A DNA stretch of 64,000 nt from Nelumbo lutea (taxonomy: Eukaryota > Streptophyta > Magnoliopsida > Proteales > Nelumbonaceae), in contig JAKGHH010000002.1 of the NCBI GenBank assembly GCA_022828595.1, forward strand, positions 66,622,383 through 66,686,382, given 5' to 3'. The notes beneath the pieces are model-generated. The model ran no database searches. It had not been told where the DNA came from and was given only the letters and a program-made list of their open reading frames with translations. How positions within the stretch are numbered: the stretch's first letter is position 1; each line of letters starts with the position of its first letter. Positions 35,936 to 49,989 of this stretch are shown here, in pieces. The translations under genes were made by a program, and so were the position numbers.

Positions 35936-36889
35936 TCATTCTTTAGAGTATTCCATGGGCCGCTCGAGCTTAACACCTTCTGTCAGCTTGGCTTTCCCCT
36001 TTAGTGCCGCTACGTAACATCTTTGAGACTCGAGCAGATCACCTCGGGCTACTCCTATGCCGAAGTCCATGGTGAACTTCATCATCAGGTAGTAAGTGGG
36101 CACCACGGCGCGAAGCGCGTGGGTGATTGGCCTTCCTATAAGGGCGTTGTATGGGAAGGGCATGGCCACCACCAGGAAGGTGTGCTTGAATCTTGTAATG
36201 CAGGGCCACGTCCCGATCTCCACAGGCAACGAGATTCGACCGAGGGGCCTAACTTCTTCTCCACTAAAACCCACTAGAGTGGTGCTAGCGGGCTGGAGGT
36301 CATCCTCCTGGAGCTGTAACTTATCAAAGGTGCTTCTGAATAGGATGTCGACTGAGCTTCCTGAATCCACCAAGACACGTCTGACCTCAAAGTCATTGAT
36401 CTCCATCCTTATGGCCAGTGCGTCATCATGGGGGTACTGGACTCCTCGCACATCATAAGATATGGGGTTTGCAGGCCACGGGCGCTTCGACGGGTTCTGC
36501 TCTTCATGTTCTAGTTCGCGGATCGAGGTCCTTCCTGCTGTCAAGGTGCAGCCCGTGACGATGGATCCACATGTGATTGTATTTATCACCCCGCGGACTG
36601 GTCTTTCTTTGGGTGGTTCTTGCTGCACAGCTCGCTTGTTACTGGGCTCGGGGGCGTCTCTCCTCTGTTCCCCTTGCCGATCTACCTGGGTTTTATTATT
36701 TTTTTGTACAAAATTCTTTAAGTACCCGCGACGGATGAGTTCCTCAATCTCGTCATGGAGACTTTTACAGTTTTCGGTACTATGACTGTGGTCTTTATGG
36801 AAATGGCAATATACATTCTTACTCCTGGTGGCGAGGTCCCCCTTCATCTGGGGTGGCCACCTTACAAATGGTGCATCTTTAATTGTCAT
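35936..36889 (-). CDS. G2 gag C-terminus plus protease, open frame
   Basis: 317 codons without a stop. The knuckle-like motif CHFHKDHSHSTENC and the segment EIEELIRRGYLKNFV are followed by a basic linker. Retropepsin then has VDSGSSVDILFRSTF (catalytic DSG), VGFSGEEVRPLGRI and NALIGRPITHALRAV. It is one frame in the same arrangement as G1, so gag and protease form one polyprotein in this lineage. The ATG at 36889 is internal. Upstream the frame is interrupted near 36895. Confidence 0.85.
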   Translation of the reverse strand: MTIKDAPFVRWPPQMKGDLATRSKNVYCHFHKDHSHSTENCKSLHDEIEELIRRGYLKNFVQKNNKTQVDRQGEQRRDAPEPSNKRAVQQEPPKERPVRGVINTITCGSIVTGCTLTAGRTSIRELEHEEQNPSKRPWPANPISYDVRGVQYPHDDALAIRMEINDFEVRRVLVDSGSSVDILFRSTFDKLQLQEDDLQPASTTLVGFSGEEVRPLGRISLPVEIGTWPCITRFKHTFLVVAMPFPYNALIGRPITHALRAVVPTYYLMMKFTMDFGIGVARGDLLESQRCYVAALKGKAKLTEGVKLERPMEYSKE

Positions 36890-37480
36890 TAAGATTTCCC
36901 CTTACCTCGCGTTGAGAAGGGTGTAACTCGTCCTCTCAACTAGAGGATCTCGGGGGTGCCAACCCGACTTGTCTCCCCTGGTCGGGGACTTGCTCTTCTT
37001 CCTCTTACTATTTCCATGGTGTGCCTTGTCATCGTTTCTCCTCCTCTTCTCTATTGGGGCTCTGGCCTTCTAGTTCATTTCCTCTTTAGTCTTGATGAAC
37101 TGGTCAGCGAGCTTGAGGAAAGCGGTGATGTCCTTAGGCTTGTTCACTACCACATGCCACTTGAACTCCCGATGACTGACCCATCTCTTGGTGGCGGTGA
37201 GTCTCACTGTGGGGTCCAAGTTCGGGATTGAGAGGTAGGTGTCGCTAAAGCGCTTGATGTAGCTCTAGATGGACTCTCCCTCTTTCTGGGTGATGCTCAA
37301 AGGGCTTTCCTGCGACCTCGGACACTTCTTGCTAGTGATGAAGTGCGAGGTGAACGCTTCCACGAACTGCGCCCAGTTCGAGAGACATGGGCATAGTTCT
37401 CTGAATCTACAGGTGCTATGTCACTAGACAAAGGACACAGGAGCAGTGTGGCAGGTACGGTTCTGTTAGATAAGAAGCTT
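36890..37480 (-). pseudogene. gag: G2 gag capsid domain, N-terminally truncated
   Basis: On the minus strand, NWAQFVEAFTSHFITSKKCP starts about 100 bp after the primer-binding site. KEGESI, a TAG, SYIKRFSDTYLSIPNLDP and EFKWHVVVNKPKDI follow. In G1 the same point lies 1.1 kb from the primer-binding site, so G2 has lost its leader and the first half of gag. Confidence 0.8.
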
Positions 37481-39887: not shown

Positions 39888-40749
39888 GGGTAAATTTATA
39901 AGGACGAAAAAGGTATGGAATTTACATTTTTATCCCTATTTTAATTTAACTCAATCCCTCTCAAACAGGCTGCCATCGCCATCGTCACCGACGGCGATCG
40001 CTGCAAATACGGAATGGCGGAGGTTCGGCAAAAGTTGACTCCGGTCAACGACGAACGGCGCTGGAACCACCATGGACTTGTCCCAGATCTATAAATCGTC
40101 GCAAGTACAGATCTGGGAGGGAGACGGAGGAAGAAGAAAATAGGGAGATAGACTCAGCCGACGACGAACGGCGTTGGAACTACCACGGACTTCCGCCCGA
40201 GGTCGGTGAGTTTTTTCTCCTCTGTTCTTTGTTCAAAGTTGTTTCTTCCTCTGTATCTAATCTCTCTCTCTCTTTTTGAAACGTCCCAAATCTACAGACG
40301 GGTGTGATGAAGGAAGAAGTGCTCTCGATCCCAGTATTCTATAGAAGTGCTCCCGATGCCAGTATTCTATAAATCTTGTCTCCAGCTCGCAGAAGCTGTT
40401 GACCACTATACCCTGGCTTTCGGAACCTGCTATGCCTTCCTCTATGATAAATTCGTAATGGGGACCGCTAAGCTCAGCCATGTCAAAGGGATGAGTGAAA
40501 TCGTTCTTAGTGAATTTGAGCCAAGGGAAATCAGGAGCGGTAAAGGGCTCGTCGTCTGATTTGACATTTGCAATGAATCAATTATGAATCACCACATGGA
40601 AGATGCTCGCGGCGAAGTCGTTCATCCCATAGAATATCGCCCTGGGTATTCCGAACTTGGACGCAGACTTTTGTGTCCACGAAAGGAAGCCGTCAGAGAT
40701 GATGTAACTGACGCTTGGAAGACTTTGGAGCACTTGTTCAAAGTCTAGC

Positions 40750-40970
40750 ACAGTCGAAGGAAAAGTTTTCTTTCTATCCTTCCTCCATCAAACGATTGCT
40801 GGGAATTTATATAGAGAGCAGAGTTCGGCTCACCACTAGGAATGTAATTACAGTCTCCTAAAAGAACAATGAAAAACAAAACCAAGAACAACTAAAACAT
40901 ACAAGAGATAAGGATAAGGTGTATAAAGGATAAGGCGATTCTAAGATAAGGCTCGCTTGCTCGCTTAATA
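40750..40970 (-). repeat. C3 3' LTR (end-truncated)
   Basis: Matches 44932-45152 with about nine differences. The segment corresponding to TGAGAAACT at the outer end of the other LTR is replaced by UGT sequence. It is followed by a polypurine-tract complement CCCCCCTCAAG (40970-40980). Confidence 0.85.
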
Positions 40971-40976
40971 CCCCCC

Positions 40977-43900
40977 TCAAGTTGGAGCATGTAAATGGGA
41001 AATGCCCAACTTGACAAGAAGATGTTCAAATTGTTGCCCGCCCAGGGCCTTTGTAAACATATCGGCAAGTTGCTCTGAAGTCCGGACATAGGAAGGCCAT
41101 ATATTCCCATTCTGGATTTCACTGCGGACAAAGTGATAGTCTACTTCAATGTGTTTAATCCTCTCATGGAAGACCGGATTCACAGCGATATGCAAGGCTG
41201 CTTGACTATCACAGTATAACCGCATAGGGTTAAGATGATCAACTCCTAATGAATGCAACAACCCTTTTAACCATTTCAACTCACATGCAGTTGTTGCCAT
41301 AGACCTGTATTCTGCCTCAGCTGATGATCTGGACACTGTAAGTTGCTTCTTTGTCTTCCACGTTATAGGTGTTCAGCCCAATAAAACAAAGTATCCTGTG
41401 AGAGAGCGTCGTGCCAGTTGACACCCGGCCTAGTCAGAGTCACAGTAGGCATACAATCGAATATCAATGTCAGCTGGAAGGAAAATTCCATGTCCCGGGT
41501 CACCTTTCAAATATCGCACCACATGCAAAGCCGCCTCCTAGTGTTCTTCACGGGGGTTCTGCATAAATTGAGCAAGCACATGCACACAATAGGACAATTT
41601 AGGATGGGTAATGGTCAAGTAAATTAAACGACCCACTAGCCTCCTATAACTCTCCGACTTTATCATCAGAGGACCATCTGCTAGAGCTAGTTTATGATTT
41701 TGTTCTAGGGGAAGTCTAGTTGGCTTAGCACCTAACAAACCAGTTTCTGATATGATATCCAACGCGTACTTCCACTGACAAAGAAAAATGCCTTTTTGGC
41801 TTCTTGTGACCTCCACTCCTAAAAAATATTTCAAAGTTCCCAAGTCCTTCATGTGGAAGCATTGGCTGAGATACTTCTTGAATCTCCAAATGGCATTGCC
41901 GTTATTTCTAGAGATGACAAGATCGTCCATGTAAACTAAAATATTTAACTGTTTGTGGTTCCATCGAAGCGTAAACAATGAGTAATCAGATTGTGACTAG
42001 GTAAAGCCATACTGTTTCAAGGGTGTTGTGAGTTTAGCGAACCAGCAACGAGGGGCCTGTTTCAAACCATAAAGCAACTTATGCAACTTGCACACCTTTC
42101 CAGGTAGTCTCGAAGCAAATCCAGGAGGCATCTTCATATACACTTCTTCTTGCAGATCTCCATGGAGAAATGCATTCTGCACATTCATCTAATGCAGTTC
42201 CCAGTTTCTAGCCGCAACAACTGCAAGGAATGTCTGAACTGTAACTATCTTTGCCACAGGCGCAAACGTTTCATTGAAGTCAATCCCTTCAACCTGTTTG
42301 TTTCCGAAGATCACCAAGTGCACCTTGTACTGCTCTATTGTGCCATATGAGTTGTACTTTATCTTGTAGACCCATTTACTTTCGAGAGCCTTCTTCCCTG
42401 GTGGCAAGTTCTCTAATGTCCAGGTTCTATTGTTTTCTAAAGCTTCAATTTCCTTTCTCATTGCTTCTCTCCAACGAGTCCTTGACAGCCTCTGAATAAC
42501 TCTAGGGCTCATGACTAGTTGTGACAGCTGCTAAGAAAGAGCAGTGTCACAAAGAAAATTTATCACAATTCACATACTGTGTTATAGGATAGGGAGTACC
42601 CGAGGAGTGTGATCGGCGAGGTGAACTGGCAAAGGGGCTTAGACTGTGGTTGGAACACCATGTGGTGTGTACGATGTAGTCCTTGAGACGACTGGAAGGG
42701 TGCTTCACTCTATGGCCTCGTCCAAGTTGCTCATTCCCTACATTCGTTTCTTCCATAGAACCCCCCTTACATCATACTCCCCTTAATTATTTTCACACCT
42801 GTCGCTTTGTTCTCCCTCTCTTATGACCTCACGAGTACTATCTCTTTTACTTTCACTATCTTCCTCGTCATACACTTCAGTCTCCACCTGGTTATAATCA
42901 AGATTACCATCATTGTGTCTGTGTTCAACTTGTTTTTCTTCAATAGCATAGGGAAATTCAGTTTCTGAAAACACCACATCCCTGGAAACAAAATATTCAT
43001 TGTTTTCTAAGTCATAAACTCTCCACCCCTTCTTGCTAAAGGGGTATCCCACAAAGACACAACGTCTGGCTCTACTAGCAAACTTATCCCTAGTACGATT
43101 TAGGCTTCGCACATAACACAAACACCCAAACGTTCCTATATGTTTGTAGCTTGGTTTCTGCCCATAGAACATCTCATACGGTGTTTTTCCCAAAAGCAGA
43201 GTGGAGGGGGTCTTATTGATCAGAGAACCAGTAGTCATAACACACTCTCCCCAAAACTCAATAGAAAGATTAGCCTGAAATCTAAGGGCTCTGGCAACAT
43301 TCAGTATATGTCTATGCTTTCTCTCGACACGTCCATTCTGTTGCGGTGTTCCAACACATGAGGTCTAATGTATTATACCTTGCTCAGAAAAATATTCCTT
43401 CAAGTAAGTAAATTCAGTATCATTATCACTTGTAACTATCTTCACCAATTTTTCATATTGGCGTTTTAACCATAGTGAAGAAGTTCCGATCGTTTTGCCC
43501 ACTTCACTTTTGTCATTAAGTAAGAAAATCCAAATAGCTCGCAAGAAATCATCAACAATAGTAAAAAAATATGAGGCACCAAAAGACGCCCGTACGGAGT
43601 ACGGACCCCATAAATCATAATGAATCAAATCGAAAATCCTTTTAGCATTATTTTCACTAGAATCAAACGTACCTCTTGTCTGTTTGGCTTTTGAACAAAC
43701 ACCACAAATCCTATTTCCACCACCACATCTAATGTTTACATCAGGAAGAAGTTTAATTACTTTCTCGGAGGGATGACCCATTCTCTTGTGCCATAACTCG
43801 TATGAAACTTCGACTTCTGCTTTATGAACCTTGCTTGACTATGCACCTTTGAAGCAGTAGAGCCCTCCACATAGTTCACCCGCACCAATCACCATCCTCG

Positions 43901-43980
43901 AAGTGCAGACTTGTATAACACAAAACTTATTAGTGAATTGGATATTACAGTTTGACATGCTTTCCATCAGGCAATCCAAC
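40977..43980 (-). pseudogene. C3 pol: integrase, reverse transcriptase, RNase H
   Basis: Reading from 43781, integrase has the zinc-binding segment (CGVCSKAKQTRGTF), FDLIHYDLWGPYSVRA and VTSDNDTEF. A TAG at about 43362 replaces the Gln codon before TSCVGTPQQNGRVERKHRHI. Then come GKTPYEMFYGQKPSYKHIG and RRCVFVGYPFSKKGWRVYDL. RT (42512 down) has [54 protein letters not shown] and ILVYMDDLVIS (catalytic YMDD). RNase H (41336-40977) is complete, with SSAEAEYRSMATTACELKWL, LYCDSQAALHIA and QLADMFTKALGGQQFEHLL. Stops and frameshifts between blocks show it is dead, but damage is moderate. Confidence 0.9.
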
Positions 43981-44772
43981 CTAACAACCAGTCACGGTCT
44001 CGGTATCATGCAAGTGATTCAAGTTCCCGGTCATATGGTGTGAGGCTCCTATATCAATTATCCAATTCATACTTGTCACCTTCTCACTTGTGTTGGGTTT
44101 GCAAGAATTCAAGAGATTAAGAAAAGTGGACCACTGTTCATTAGTCAATCCACTGAATGTTGTACGATCTCCTTCTATCGCGTAGATTGGTTCGGAAGTT
44201 TGCCCTACCGCTTGCACAGCATTTGCTCTCTGTACTACTCCACGTCCATGACCGCCATTGCCACTCCTATCGATAATTCTGACATGATCATTTCTTCTTC
44301 CCGTGACAAGTCTGTCCTTGTCTGGCATCTTACCAAAGAAGAGGGAACATATGGTGTCCCCCACCGCCGTCTCACCGGTCATTCTCACTTCGTGGAGGAT
44401 GTCGTGCTCTCCTCCAACAGTCAGTTTGCTCTCTTCGGCTCTTGGGACAGCGAGCTCCGTCTCTGGGACCTTAATACCGGCATTACCACTCGCCGTTTCA
44501 ATGGTCACACCAAGGATGTCCTCTCCGTTGCCTTCTCTATCGACAACCTTCAAATCGCCTCTGCTTCTCGGGACCGCACTATCAAGCTTTGGAATACACT
44601 TGGAGAATGCAGGTACACAATTCAGGATGCTGACAGCCACACCAACTGGGTGAGTTGCGTCAGGTTCAGCCCCAATACATTCCAACCCACTATTGTCTCT
44701 GGATCTTGGGATCAGGTCGTGAAGGTTTGGAACCTTACCAATTGCAAATTGCGTTGCATGTTGACGGGTCAC
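43981..44772 (-). other. Chimeric open frame: antisense RACK1 joined to C3 gag end and protease
   Basis: 263 codons are open on the minus strand. The first 170 or so are read from the reverse complement of RACK1. From about 44250 the frame enters genuine copia sequence ([35 protein letters not shown]) and reaches the protease motif [13 protein letters not shown] (usual DSG read as DIG). The RACK1 part therefore supplies a new, unrelated N-terminus in frame with pol. Whether it is translated is unknown. Confidence 0.6.
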
Positions 44773-44915
44773 GGAGGTTACGTGAACACTGTTGCAATTT
44801 CGCCCGATGGCTCTCTTTGTGCCAGTGGTGGCAAAGACGGTCGAACTCTACTTTGGGACTTGGCAGAAGGAAAGAGGCTCTACTCGCTTGATGCAGGGGC
44901 TATTATTCATGCTCT
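44251..44915 (+). pseudogene. RACK1: RACK1 (WD40 scaffold) cDNA fragment inside C3, antisense to the element
   Basis: The plus strand reads, without stops or introns, [117 protein letters not shown] and [13 protein letters not shown]. This is plant RACK1 from near residue 19 to about residue 240, covering roughly the first five WD repeats and part of the sixth. RACK1 is a ribosome-bound signalling scaffold. Start codon and the last repeats are missing. Substitutions at conserved positions (SGSWDG to FGSWDS) suggest relaxed constraint. Upstream codons from 44200 belong to C3. Confidence 0.95.
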
Positions 44916-44922
44916 GATACCA
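44911..44922 (-). other. C3 primer-binding site fused to RACK1
   Basis: On the minus strand TGGTATCAGAGC follows the 5' LTR end (CTCA) directly; it is the initiator-Met tRNA type. Its last five bases (AGAGC) are also the reverse complement of RACK1 codons (GCTCT in HAL). RACK1 therefore begins with no intervening leader. Confidence 0.9.
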
Positions 44923-45152
44923 TGAGAAACTACAGTTGAAGGAAAAGTTTTCTTTCTATCCTTCCTCCAACAAACGATTGCTGGGAATTTATATACAGAG
45001 CAGAGTTTGGCTCACCACTAGGAATGTAATTATAGTCTCATAAAAGAACAATGAAAAACAAAACCAAGAACAACTAAAACATACAAGAGATAAGGATAAG
45101 GTGTACAGAGGATAAGGCGATTCTAAGATAAGGCTCGCTTGCTCGCTTTATA
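44923..45152 (-). repeat. C3 5' LTR
   Basis: 230 bp, starting TGAGAAACT (plus-strand view). It has a minus-strand TATA box (TATATAAATTCCC, about 44986-44998). Confidence 0.85.
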
Positions 45153-45453
45153 GTTACATAAATCTGGTGGCTTTAGCAAACGGTACGAAGAAACTCATAG
45201 ACGAAAGTTGATTGGTGCTGTAGATCTGGGACATTTTAGAGAGGATGAAACGACTTTGAACGAAGAAGAGAGGAGAAAAAATGTAATTTTGCATAGGGGT
45301 ATAATGGGCATTTTATCTTTTTCGTCCATATTTAACGGTTAATGGTACACTTTGTCAATTGTTAAAAACAATAAGGATACACTTAGTTAATTTTCAAATA
45401 GTAAAAGAATTAGTCAATTAACTAAACCATAAGATAGTTTAAGAAATTTACCC

Positions 45454-46933: not shown

Positions 46934-49926
46934 AATTGGACTAGACTAGACAAAGGAACCTCGCCCCCAAAAGATGGAAGATAGTAGACAAGGAAGTAAG
47001 GAAGCTACTTACAACAAAATTCATTAGAGAGGTCCAATATTCGAGCTTGATTGCAAACCCAGTACTTGTGAAGAAAGCCAATGGCAAGTGGTGCATGTGC
47101 TTCGATTATGCAAACCATAATAGAGCCTGCCCAAAGGATAACTTTCCAATTTAAAAAAATTGATCGCCTAGTAGATGCGACCTCAGGGTTTGAGTTGTTG
47201 AGTTTCATGGATGCATACTCTAGCTATAAATAGACTTCGATGGACCCGACTGATGAAGAAAAAATCGCATTTGTAATTGAGATGGGTTTCTACTATTATA
47301 AAGTCATGCCCTTTAGCCTTAAAAACGTTGGGGTGACCTTCCAACGTCTTCTAAACAATGTTTTTTTAGACTTAATTAGAAACAAATTTAAGTGTTATGT
47401 AGATGATATGGTTGTAAAAACTAATTTTTCAAATTCTTTAATTTCCACGACCTAAATTGCGTTTTTAATGTCTTAAGGAAGTATAACATGAAACTCAACA
47501 CAAACAAATGTGTCTTCAGTGTCACGCCAGGCAAGTTCCTTGGTTACATAGTTAGCTGACGTGGCATCGAGGCCAAGTCGGACAAAGTTCAAGCCATCCT
47601 AGATATGCGACCTCCCATGTCGATTAAAGAAGTACAAAAATTAACTGGCCGAATAGCCGCCCTGAACCGATTTATGTCTAAGTTGGCTAGGCGATGTCTC
47701 CCATTCTTTAAGGCCATAAAAAAGAGCTAGGACCTTGAGTGGAATAACGAGTGCTAGCTCACTTTTGATGAGCTAAAATAGTACCTCAGTTTGCCACCTA
47801 TGTTGACCAAACCCAAGTCTGAATACAAGTTAAGCTCTACCTCTTTGCAAGTGATGAGGTAGTCAACTCGATACTTATTAGAGAAGTAAAGAAAGTGCAG
47901 CGACTAGTTTATTATGTAAGTAAGGTACTGCACGCTACTGAGGCTAAGTACACGGACATTAAGAAATTGTCCTTCGCATTAGTTCTAGTAGCCCAAAAGC
48001 TAAGACCTAATTTTCAGGCCCACTCTATTATAGTCTTGATCGATCGACCTCTGAGGCAAGTCCTCCAAAAGCTTGAGGTCTAAAGGAAACTTACGAAATG
48101 GGCAATCAAACTTAGTGAATATGATATTCGATTTGAGCTGTGACCAACAATTACCAACAATCAAAGTGCAAGTCTTGGCAAATTTTGTTGCCGAGTGTAC
48201 GTTCAACTTGCCGACCCTTGAAGTTGCTGAGCTAGTAACCACCTTAGAGGCATCAACCAATGTGACACCTATCCTGGCCTGGGATGAAGAGTCCTGGATC
48301 CTCCATTTGGACAACTCGTCCAACTAGTGTGGAAGCGGAGCTGGACTGATCCTCTACAGGCTAAGCGAAGTAAAGCTAGAATATGCCCTCCAGTTCACAT
48401 TCTGAGCTTTGAATAATGTAGTTGAATAAGAGGCATTTATAGCTAGCTTGTTACTAGCAAAAGAGGTTGGGGCAAAACATCTTGTACTGTGTAGTGACTC
48501 ACAACTGGTTGTTAACCAAGTGAATGGACAATATGAGGCCCAAGAACCCACCATGTCGACCTATTTGACCAAGGTTAGGGAGCTCCTGCCCAACTTGCAC
48601 TCTATGAAATGGACGACTTACATAGAAGACCTACCATGCCCAATCATAAAAAGGGTGGCAAAAGAGATCACCCCTATTCTGGTGGTAGAGCTGAGCTGGA
48701 TAGATCCTTTCATTGACTATATTCACCATGGGACCTTACCAAAAGAGCATAATGCAGCCTGGAGGGTAGAGCTGCAGGCAGCTCACTACGTGATCATAAG
48801 TGAACAACTATACAAAAGATTATTCATGCTCCCCTACCTACGTTGCTTACGTCGAGATGAAGTGGACCAAGTGCTGCGGAAGACCCACGAAGGTGTCTGC
48901 AAAGGACACACTTGGGGGGTAGGGCAATTGTCCAAAAGGCGCTACAACAAGGCTGCATACTATTGGCCTACAATGAAAGCAGATACAATTGAAGTAGTAT
49001 AGAAGTGCAGCAAGTGTCAGTGGCATGCTAACATTCTACATCAACCCATAGCCGACCTAAAATATCTTACCATCCCATGGCCTTTTGCGCAATGGGGGGA
49101 CATACTTGGTTCCTTTCCACCCGTGACTGCAGAGGAAGTTCTTAGTCATAGCAGTTGATTATTCCATAAAATGGGTGGAGGCCGACCTGCTAGTATCTAT
49201 CACAACTCGAAACGTACAGATTTTTTTCTAGAGAAGCATCGTCTATAAATTTGGGCTACCTAAGGTGCTAATCTCAGACAGTGGTAAGCAATTTGAAGAT
49301 ATCAAGTTCTAAAACCGATGTGCATAGATGGGCATACAACAAAATTTAACCTCGGTCACTCATCTCCAAGCAAATGGTCAGGCCAAAGTGACAAACTAGG
49401 TGATACTCCGTGGCCTTAAAGCTTGGCTCTCCTGAGTTAAAGTTATGTGGGTGAGTGAGCTGCCCAGTGTCCTGGGGGCCTACCAAACCAATATTAAGAT
49501 GGTGATTGGTGAAACACCTTTCAACTTAACATATAGAACTGAAGCTATAATCCCAACCAAAATTGAAGTGCCGACCTTACATTCCGAGACATATGACGAA
49601 GAGACCAACAGGATGGCCTATGGGAAAATCTAGACATGGTAGAAGAGGTTTGTGATTTGGCCTACATTTGGACTACAACATACCAACAACGAGTAACTCG
49701 ATACTATAACACCCAAGTTAGGAGACACCAATTCAAAGTTGGCGACTTAGTACTCAGGAAGATTATGGAGCCTGAGCCCAGTGTGGGAAAGCTAGGTCTA
49801 AATTGGGAATGCCCCTATAGGGTCTTTAGAGTGATTGGCAAAAACGTGTACGAGCTCGAAACATTGGAGGGGAAGCTGGTACCCCATGCGTGAAACATGG
49901 ACAACTTAAGAAGGTATTATTTGTGA
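46934..49926 (+). pseudogene. G3 pol: reverse transcriptase, RNase H, integrase (heavily broken)
   Basis: RT pieces are ANPVLVKKANGKWCMCFDY, a SFMDAYSSY-like segment, KVMPFSLKNVGVTFQRLLN and CYVDDMVVKTNFSN (about 47390-47430), then GKFLGYIVS and AALNRFMSKLARRCLPFF. RNase H has WILHLDNSSN and LVLCSDSQLVVNQVNGQYEA. Integrase has HEGVCKGHTWG, YYWPTMKADTIEVV, the core around 49090-49400 with many stops, then GETPFNLTYRTEA and FKVGDLVLRKIMEPEPSVGK, ending RRYYL. Stops and frameshifts are too many to list; it is clearly dead. Confidence 0.9.
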
Positions 49927-49989
49927 AAAAGTCCAGAAGTTCCGAGCCTCGTCCACAAAGTTCAAAAATTCCACTAAGAATGAAAAAAA

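Follow-up and report, generated by a model that had tools for sequence, protein, structure and literature searches.

The window, a 64,000-nucleotide stretch of the Nelumbo lutea genome, contains a Ty1/copia long terminal repeat (LTR) retrotransposon that is a non-autonomous derivative. The element lies on the minus strand and displays two LTRs, a tRNA primer-binding site (PBS), a polypurine tract and an integrase region placed before the reverse transcriptase. Self-comparison of the window revealed the LTR pair (44932-45152 versus 40750-40970, 95.9% identity over 221 bp). The 5' LTR occupies 44923-45152, starting with TATAAAGCGAGC and ending with TTTCTCA in the element sense (bounds from the related copies L009, L011 and L012), and is adjoined by the 5' flank GTAAC (45153-45157). 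The 3' LTR (40750-40970), delimited by self-comparison and by other copies, has its final ~9 bp missing or replaced. The PBS, read from the sequence as TGGTATCAGAGC at 44911-44922, is complementary to the 3' end of tRNA-Met (...GGCTCTGATA plus CCA); the tRNA 3' end GGATCGAAACCTGGCTCTGATA had 22 matches in the genome, and ARAGORN called tRNA-Met in all six loci examined. Translation and a motif placed a gag tail remnant and the start of the protease, which we take to be such from its motif, at 43981-44253; the motif reads WIIDTGA or WIIDTGV in the three other copies of this element described below. The gag-pre-integrase, integrase core and SH3-like domains (Pfam PF13976, PF00665 and PF25597) fall in an interrupted region at 42783-43838, with an integrase core match that is weak and below the Pfam cut-off, and the reverse transcriptase (RVT_2, PF07727) forms two separate open pieces at 41541-42530. 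In the element sense, integrase (43838-42783) therefore precedes RVT_2 (42530-41541), which is the domain order of copia elements. The RNase H-like end of pol (40977-41372) was recognized by eye from the translation, the Pfam search returning no family, and comparison of copies identified GGGGGG at 40971-40976 as the end of the polypurine tract before the 3' LTR. The pol region of the window copy is interrupted, and ~113 bp near position 43953 are missing from it that are present in L009, L011 and the RACK1-free (native) copies L012 to L015.

Other remnants were observed in the vicinity of the copia element. A degenerate gypsy-like pol lies beside it on the plus strand at 46950-49930 (extent by eye; RVT_3 match at 48430-49002). 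Just past the 3' LTR, minus-strand frames at 40257-40787 resemble by eye a piece of a plant UDP-glycosyltransferase, for which the Pfam search gave no match. A 321-residue open frame on the minus strand (35936-36901) has a weak aspartyl-protease match (PF13650, below cut-off) and is perhaps a piece of a gypsy-type gag-protease.

The PBS and the gag tail are separated by a fragment of the host RACK1 gene. The plus-strand open reading frame 44044-44922 matched plant RACK1 chains of solved structure (E=3.5e-123), its residues 68-291 aligning with RACK1 residues 18-241. Comparison at the DNA level extended the RACK1 homology over 44249-44916 and showed that an intact RACK1 gene elsewhere in the same genome is 95% identical to the insert over 662 bp. 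Together, protein and genome comparisons define the captured segment as 44254-44915, plus strand and thus antisense to the element, corresponding approximately to host codons 20-239 within exon 1. The first-pass annotation had proposed an antisense RACK1 sequence between the PBS and the gag tail and protease of a copia element, and this is confirmed by the RACK1 match, the flanking copia domains and the two LTRs. It had also described the insert as intronless, which is true but uninformative on an RNA origin. Host exon 1 extends from the ATG at L018:3513 to 4355, i.e., 281 codons followed by a GT donor site, and the alignment maps the intron outside the captured region. Since the whole fragment is inside exon 1, the lack of introns cannot discriminate mRNA from genomic DNA and was rejected as evidence for RNA.

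A genome search with the RACK1 insert provided 11 candidates, all of which were scored. These were the window copy on chromosome C2, three additional captured copies on C1 (L010), C4 (L009) and C7 (L011), two intact RACK1 genes on C4 and C3, a broken relative on C8 and four short fragments. The C8 locus (L020, C8:7288500-7296000) is a third RACK1-like locus whose exon 1 lacks a match to the first 113 bp and to ~179 bp internally; it is likely a pseudogene. The four RACK1/WD40-like fragments (L028, L029, L031 and L032; 39-152 bp, 72-97% identity to exon 1) were rejected as further captured copies since their ~1.5-kb flanks did not match the window element.

Sequence divergence designates the intact RACK1 gene on C4 (C4:30662569) as the donor. 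The K values of the captured copies were 0.045-0.061 relative to this gene versus 0.19-0.20 relative to the C3 gene, which is 84% identical to the window insert. The closest RACK1 relative among the best 120 of 8000 scored candidates was that of Protea (94%). Differences from the C4 gene comprised 12 that are common to all four captured copies and 73 that are private to one copy. The 12 common differences rule out separate captures in the different copies; three of them agree with the C3 gene, and at these sites it may be the C4 gene that changed.

Both junctions are identical in the four captured copies, barring point changes. The left junction (44249-44253), compared in the four captured copies, five RACK1-free copies and the two intact host genes, joins the element sequence ...CACGACC to RACK1 ...GTGACCGCC, and GACC is common to both parents. 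The right junction (44908-44916), compared in the four captured copies, four RACK1-free copies with a readable PBS and the two intact host genes, joins RACK1 ...TTCATTCTCTG to the PBS strand GCTCTGATACCA, and CTCTG is common to the host gene and the PBS. At this position, the host sequence is GCTCTG in the C3 gene and TCTCTG in the C4 gene; the bases preceding the junction are AGGCTC (or TAGGCTC) in three copies and ATGCTC in the window copy. The insert is an internal fragment joined straight to the PBS and carries no mRNA 3' end with poly(A), which excludes a processed retropseudogene of the LINE type. The PBS-to-junction span in RACK1-free copies was 1130 bp in L012, 835 or 873 bp in L013 (repeated PBS) and 1227 bp in L014, indicating that the chimera has lost the leader and the greater part of gag, as initially proposed. 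A complete gag was absent from all four captured copies, in which RACK1 stands in its place and the gag tail is kept. L012, L013 and L014 also contain a 24-bp tandem repeat at the LTR end, which is absent from the captured copies. The search for elements scored 40 of 87 candidates, so that its counts are lower bounds; it provided at least 24 RACK1-free gag-tail matches, of which 17 of 24 were taken for comparison, and L016, which matched in the LTR only, was left out.

Movement of the chimera left additional traces. Target-site duplications of 5 bp flank two of the four captured copies (ATATC in L009 and ATAAG in L011). None is visible in L010 or in the window copy, both of which have damaged 3' ends, in the latter case because the terminal ~9 bp of its 3' LTR were lost or replaced. 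Alignments of the captured copies with the window end at the element boundaries. The shared junctions, the target-site duplications and the position of these alignment ends indicate that retrotransposition carried the chimera to new sites once the capture had taken place. Thus, a single capture event was followed by spread of the chimera to at least four places. The LTRs on both sides and the three further copies with identical junctions support the earlier proposal that the capture predates insertion of the window copy, and the search for identical junctions suggested in the first-pass annotation accordingly retrieved four captured copies, including that of the window, on four chromosomes. 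Divergence between LTRs (K) was 0.042 for the window copy, 0.074 for L009, 0.109 for the truncated L010 and 0.041 for L011. At the substitution rate of rice (1.3e-8 per site per year), which is not calibrated for lotus, values of 0.041-0.074 would correspond to ~1.6-2.9 million years.

Because the chimera lacks most of gag, Gag should be provided by other elements, presumably related ones, and one of the captured copies is consistent with such an exchange. The gag genes of natives L012, L013 and L014 are also interrupted by stops. In trees constructed for three pieces of the element, the gag tail, the integrase (INT) and the reverse transcriptase-RNase H (RT/RH), the captured copies fell with natives L012 to L015. 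The INT tree contained 19 of 21 rows (the piece being too short in L010 and L017) and the RT/RH tree 18 of 21 (without L017, L033 and L040). The captured copies formed one clade in the INT tree only, in 96% of the bootstraps and for three copies, since L010 lacks the piece. They were united in 4% and 2% of the bootstraps for the gag tail and RT/RH, respectively, L011 joining natives L012 and L014, and we attribute this to recombination in L011. In the RT/RH piece of L011, the 13 informative sites at 65-579 were all of the captured type and the 11 sites at 581-1178 were all of the native type, a split with a probability of 4e-7 by chance; among 12 outgroup copies, eight of the 11 native-type states were rare. 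The gag tail has five derived states of the native type at 24-101 (one of them weakly polarized, 8 versus 6 outgroup copies) and one of the captured type at 175. Of the 22 sites in the INT piece, 18 were of the captured type and the four native-type sites are probably ancestral. Comparison with natives L013 and L015 gave ratios of native to captured sites of 2:2, 3:11 and 1:4 in the three pieces. Judged from this site pattern, L011 appears to be a clear recombinant with a RACK1-free relative. Such a mosaic would be expected from an exchange, in either direction, between two RNAs packaged in one particle.

The captured fragment looks like a neutrally decaying passenger today. Private changes were counted after exclusion of seven sites differing in several copies, of the last two bases and of codons with gaps or stops. 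In the RACK1 sense frame, 46 of the 73 private changes were nonsynonymous versus 50.9 expected (P=0.116), with 12/21, 10/18, 13/21 and 11/13 in the individual copies; selection on this frame was thus not detected from these changes. The three antisense frames similarly gave no signal of selection (44, 48 and 50 nonsynonymous changes of 73). The RACK1 sense frame is open in the window copy only, the C1 and C4 copies being frameshifted and the C7 copy containing both a stop and a frameshift. One of the antisense frames of the C4 gene stays open over 220 codons and, in the window copy, continues in phase into the gag tail and protease. We do not, however, claim a working fused open reading frame in the element sense, since the frame is broken in all four copies, a start ATG is present in the window copy only and selection is not apparent. 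C>T or G>A transitions account for 56 of the 73 private changes, with an excess over CHH sites at both CG (odds 3.6, P=1e-4) and CHG (odds 3.0, P=0.002) sites, a spectrum that looks as expected for methylated, silenced DNA.

Two readings would attribute a different status to the insert. According to one of them, the fragment is functional, antisense RACK1 RNA or small RNAs produced from the element regulating the host gene. In each of the four captured copies, 222-240 of the 622-640-odd 21-mers match the C4 gene exactly, and small-RNA action in trans is for this reason possible. Pairwise dN/dS ratios, at 0.35-0.67 among copies and 0.37-0.67 relative to the C4 gene, are also below 1, which counts against a neutral reading, although mutation bias may explain part of the deviation. 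The private changes, however, display selection neither in the sense frame nor in the three antisense frames, the C-to-T decay is biased to CG and CHG sites, and the element is present in only four diverged copies, so that we regard a regulatory role as very improbable. According to the other reading, the window contains a separate RACK1 gene or processed pseudogene flanked by chance by pieces of an element, or is wrongly assembled. The open sense frame of the window copy might be quoted in its favor, but an open frame in one copy is expected by chance with a probability of ~0.30, and the three other copies are frameshifted. The fragment moreover lacks the start, the end and the intron of the gene, and the identical junctions on four chromosomes rule out an assembly error or an independent RACK1 gene, leaving a virtually negligible likelihood for this reading.

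The remaining question is how ~660 bp of RACK1 exon 1 came to be joined in antisense to the PBS, in place of ~0.8-1.2 kb of leader and gag. The route that we consider the most likely, albeit tentatively, is mis-priming by plus-strand strong-stop DNA. The 3' end of this DNA, corresponding to the copied tRNA end ...CAGAGC, would have paired with CUCUG of a packaged RACK1 mRNA rather than with the element's own minus strand. Extension along the RACK1 mRNA toward its 5' end would have placed antisense RACK1 directly after the PBS, and a switch of the growing strand at GGTC/GACC back to minus-strand DNA in gag would have restored the gag tail and pol. A single mis-priming error would therefore explain why the insert is antisense and why it adjoins the PBS. 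Several observations count against this route. The shared stretches at the junctions are short, at 4 and 5 bp. The antisense strand of the C4 exon contains seven CAGAG motifs, and a longer match (CAGAGCC) located 29 nt from the used site was not used. CAGAGC is unique, and located at the junction, in the C3 gene only; since the C4 gene reads TCTCTG rather than GCTCTG, the pairing at the time of capture is uncertain. The fragment is within one exon, which leaves the RNA template unproven, and selection for mobility would also permit a junction just past the PBS. The main rival is capture at the DNA level, in which a break in gag would have been repaired by microhomology end-joining with an inverted RACK1 exon-1 filler before the repaired element transposed. 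Short microhomologies at the two ends, filler in place of deleted sequence and confinement of the fragment to one exon are the expected signatures of such a repair. It does not account for the position of one end at the end of the tRNA-copied PBS; keeping the PBS requires only a junction beyond it. We view this repair as a possible, if less probable, origin of the chimera. If first-strand synthesis on the element RNA jumped to RACK1 mRNA, the insert should be in the sense orientation. The usual model of capture by LTR elements, in which the minus strand switches template, would consequently require a packaged antisense RACK1 transcript, and it appears unlikely here even though switching of templates at short stretches of similarity is the accepted mechanism (PMC5408686, PMC13317346). 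Overall, we consider it probable that a Ty1/copia element captured the RACK1 exon-1 fragment once and spread with borrowed Gag, that plus-strand mis-priming is the likeliest route of this capture and that the insert is now a neutral passenger. More speculatively, antisense captures may follow a distinct route for which the PBS is a hot spot, the orientation of the insert revealing which strand erred, and the gag-poor chimera may have persisted over several rounds through helper relatives, which it used and with which it recombined.

The lotus element offers a natural multi-copy case, with the donor gene, relatives that lack the insert and both breakpoints all legible in a single genome. If plus-strand mis-priming did occur, capture orientation and junction position would provide a readout of which step of reverse transcription failed. 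The recombinant copy suggests how an element without full gag can persist by sharing particles with its relatives. Titles and abstract openings among the papers listed, with thin coverage of subscription journals, contained no report of RACK1 capture or of a comparable antisense capture at the PBS; as far as that goes, they are consistent with the statement of the first-pass annotation that none was known for RACK1. Capture of host genes by plant LTR elements is described in a 2026 review (PMC13317346) and a 2020 mini-review (PMC7264820), the latter indicating that transduced gene sequences are usually in the gag-pol sense. Against this background, the lotus insert, captured in antisense at the PBS, seems to be an uncommon form of a known process. 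Host genes within full-length LTR elements are common in rice and sorghum (672 and 1343 reported, PMC3726574), the main text of that study giving no orientation data for comparison with the lotus insert. Animal LTR-mediated retroposition (Tan et al. 2016, as described in PMC5408686) similarly forms chimeras when reverse transcription switches between element RNA and packaged mRNA at a short stretch of similarity, but its switch occurs during synthesis of the first cDNA strand and should give a sense insert. Antisense sequences inside plant LTR elements are also found as the additional open reading frames of Grande, RIRE2 and Retand; as presented in PMC7264820, these differ from the RACK1 insert in being located between pol and the 3' LTR, in being conserved in the family and in having no parent gene outside the elements. 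A close parallel is maize Bs1, an LTR element with host gene fragments between its LTRs (PMC13317346). Several features of a Bs1-type capture are present in lotus, namely, a host gene fragment between LTRs, an intact donor elsewhere and a chimera transposed as a unit. Bs1 contains pieces of three genes, whereas the lotus element carries a fragment of one gene; this fragment is joined to the PBS and lies in antisense, contrary to the usual sense orientation of transduced sequences (PMC7264820).
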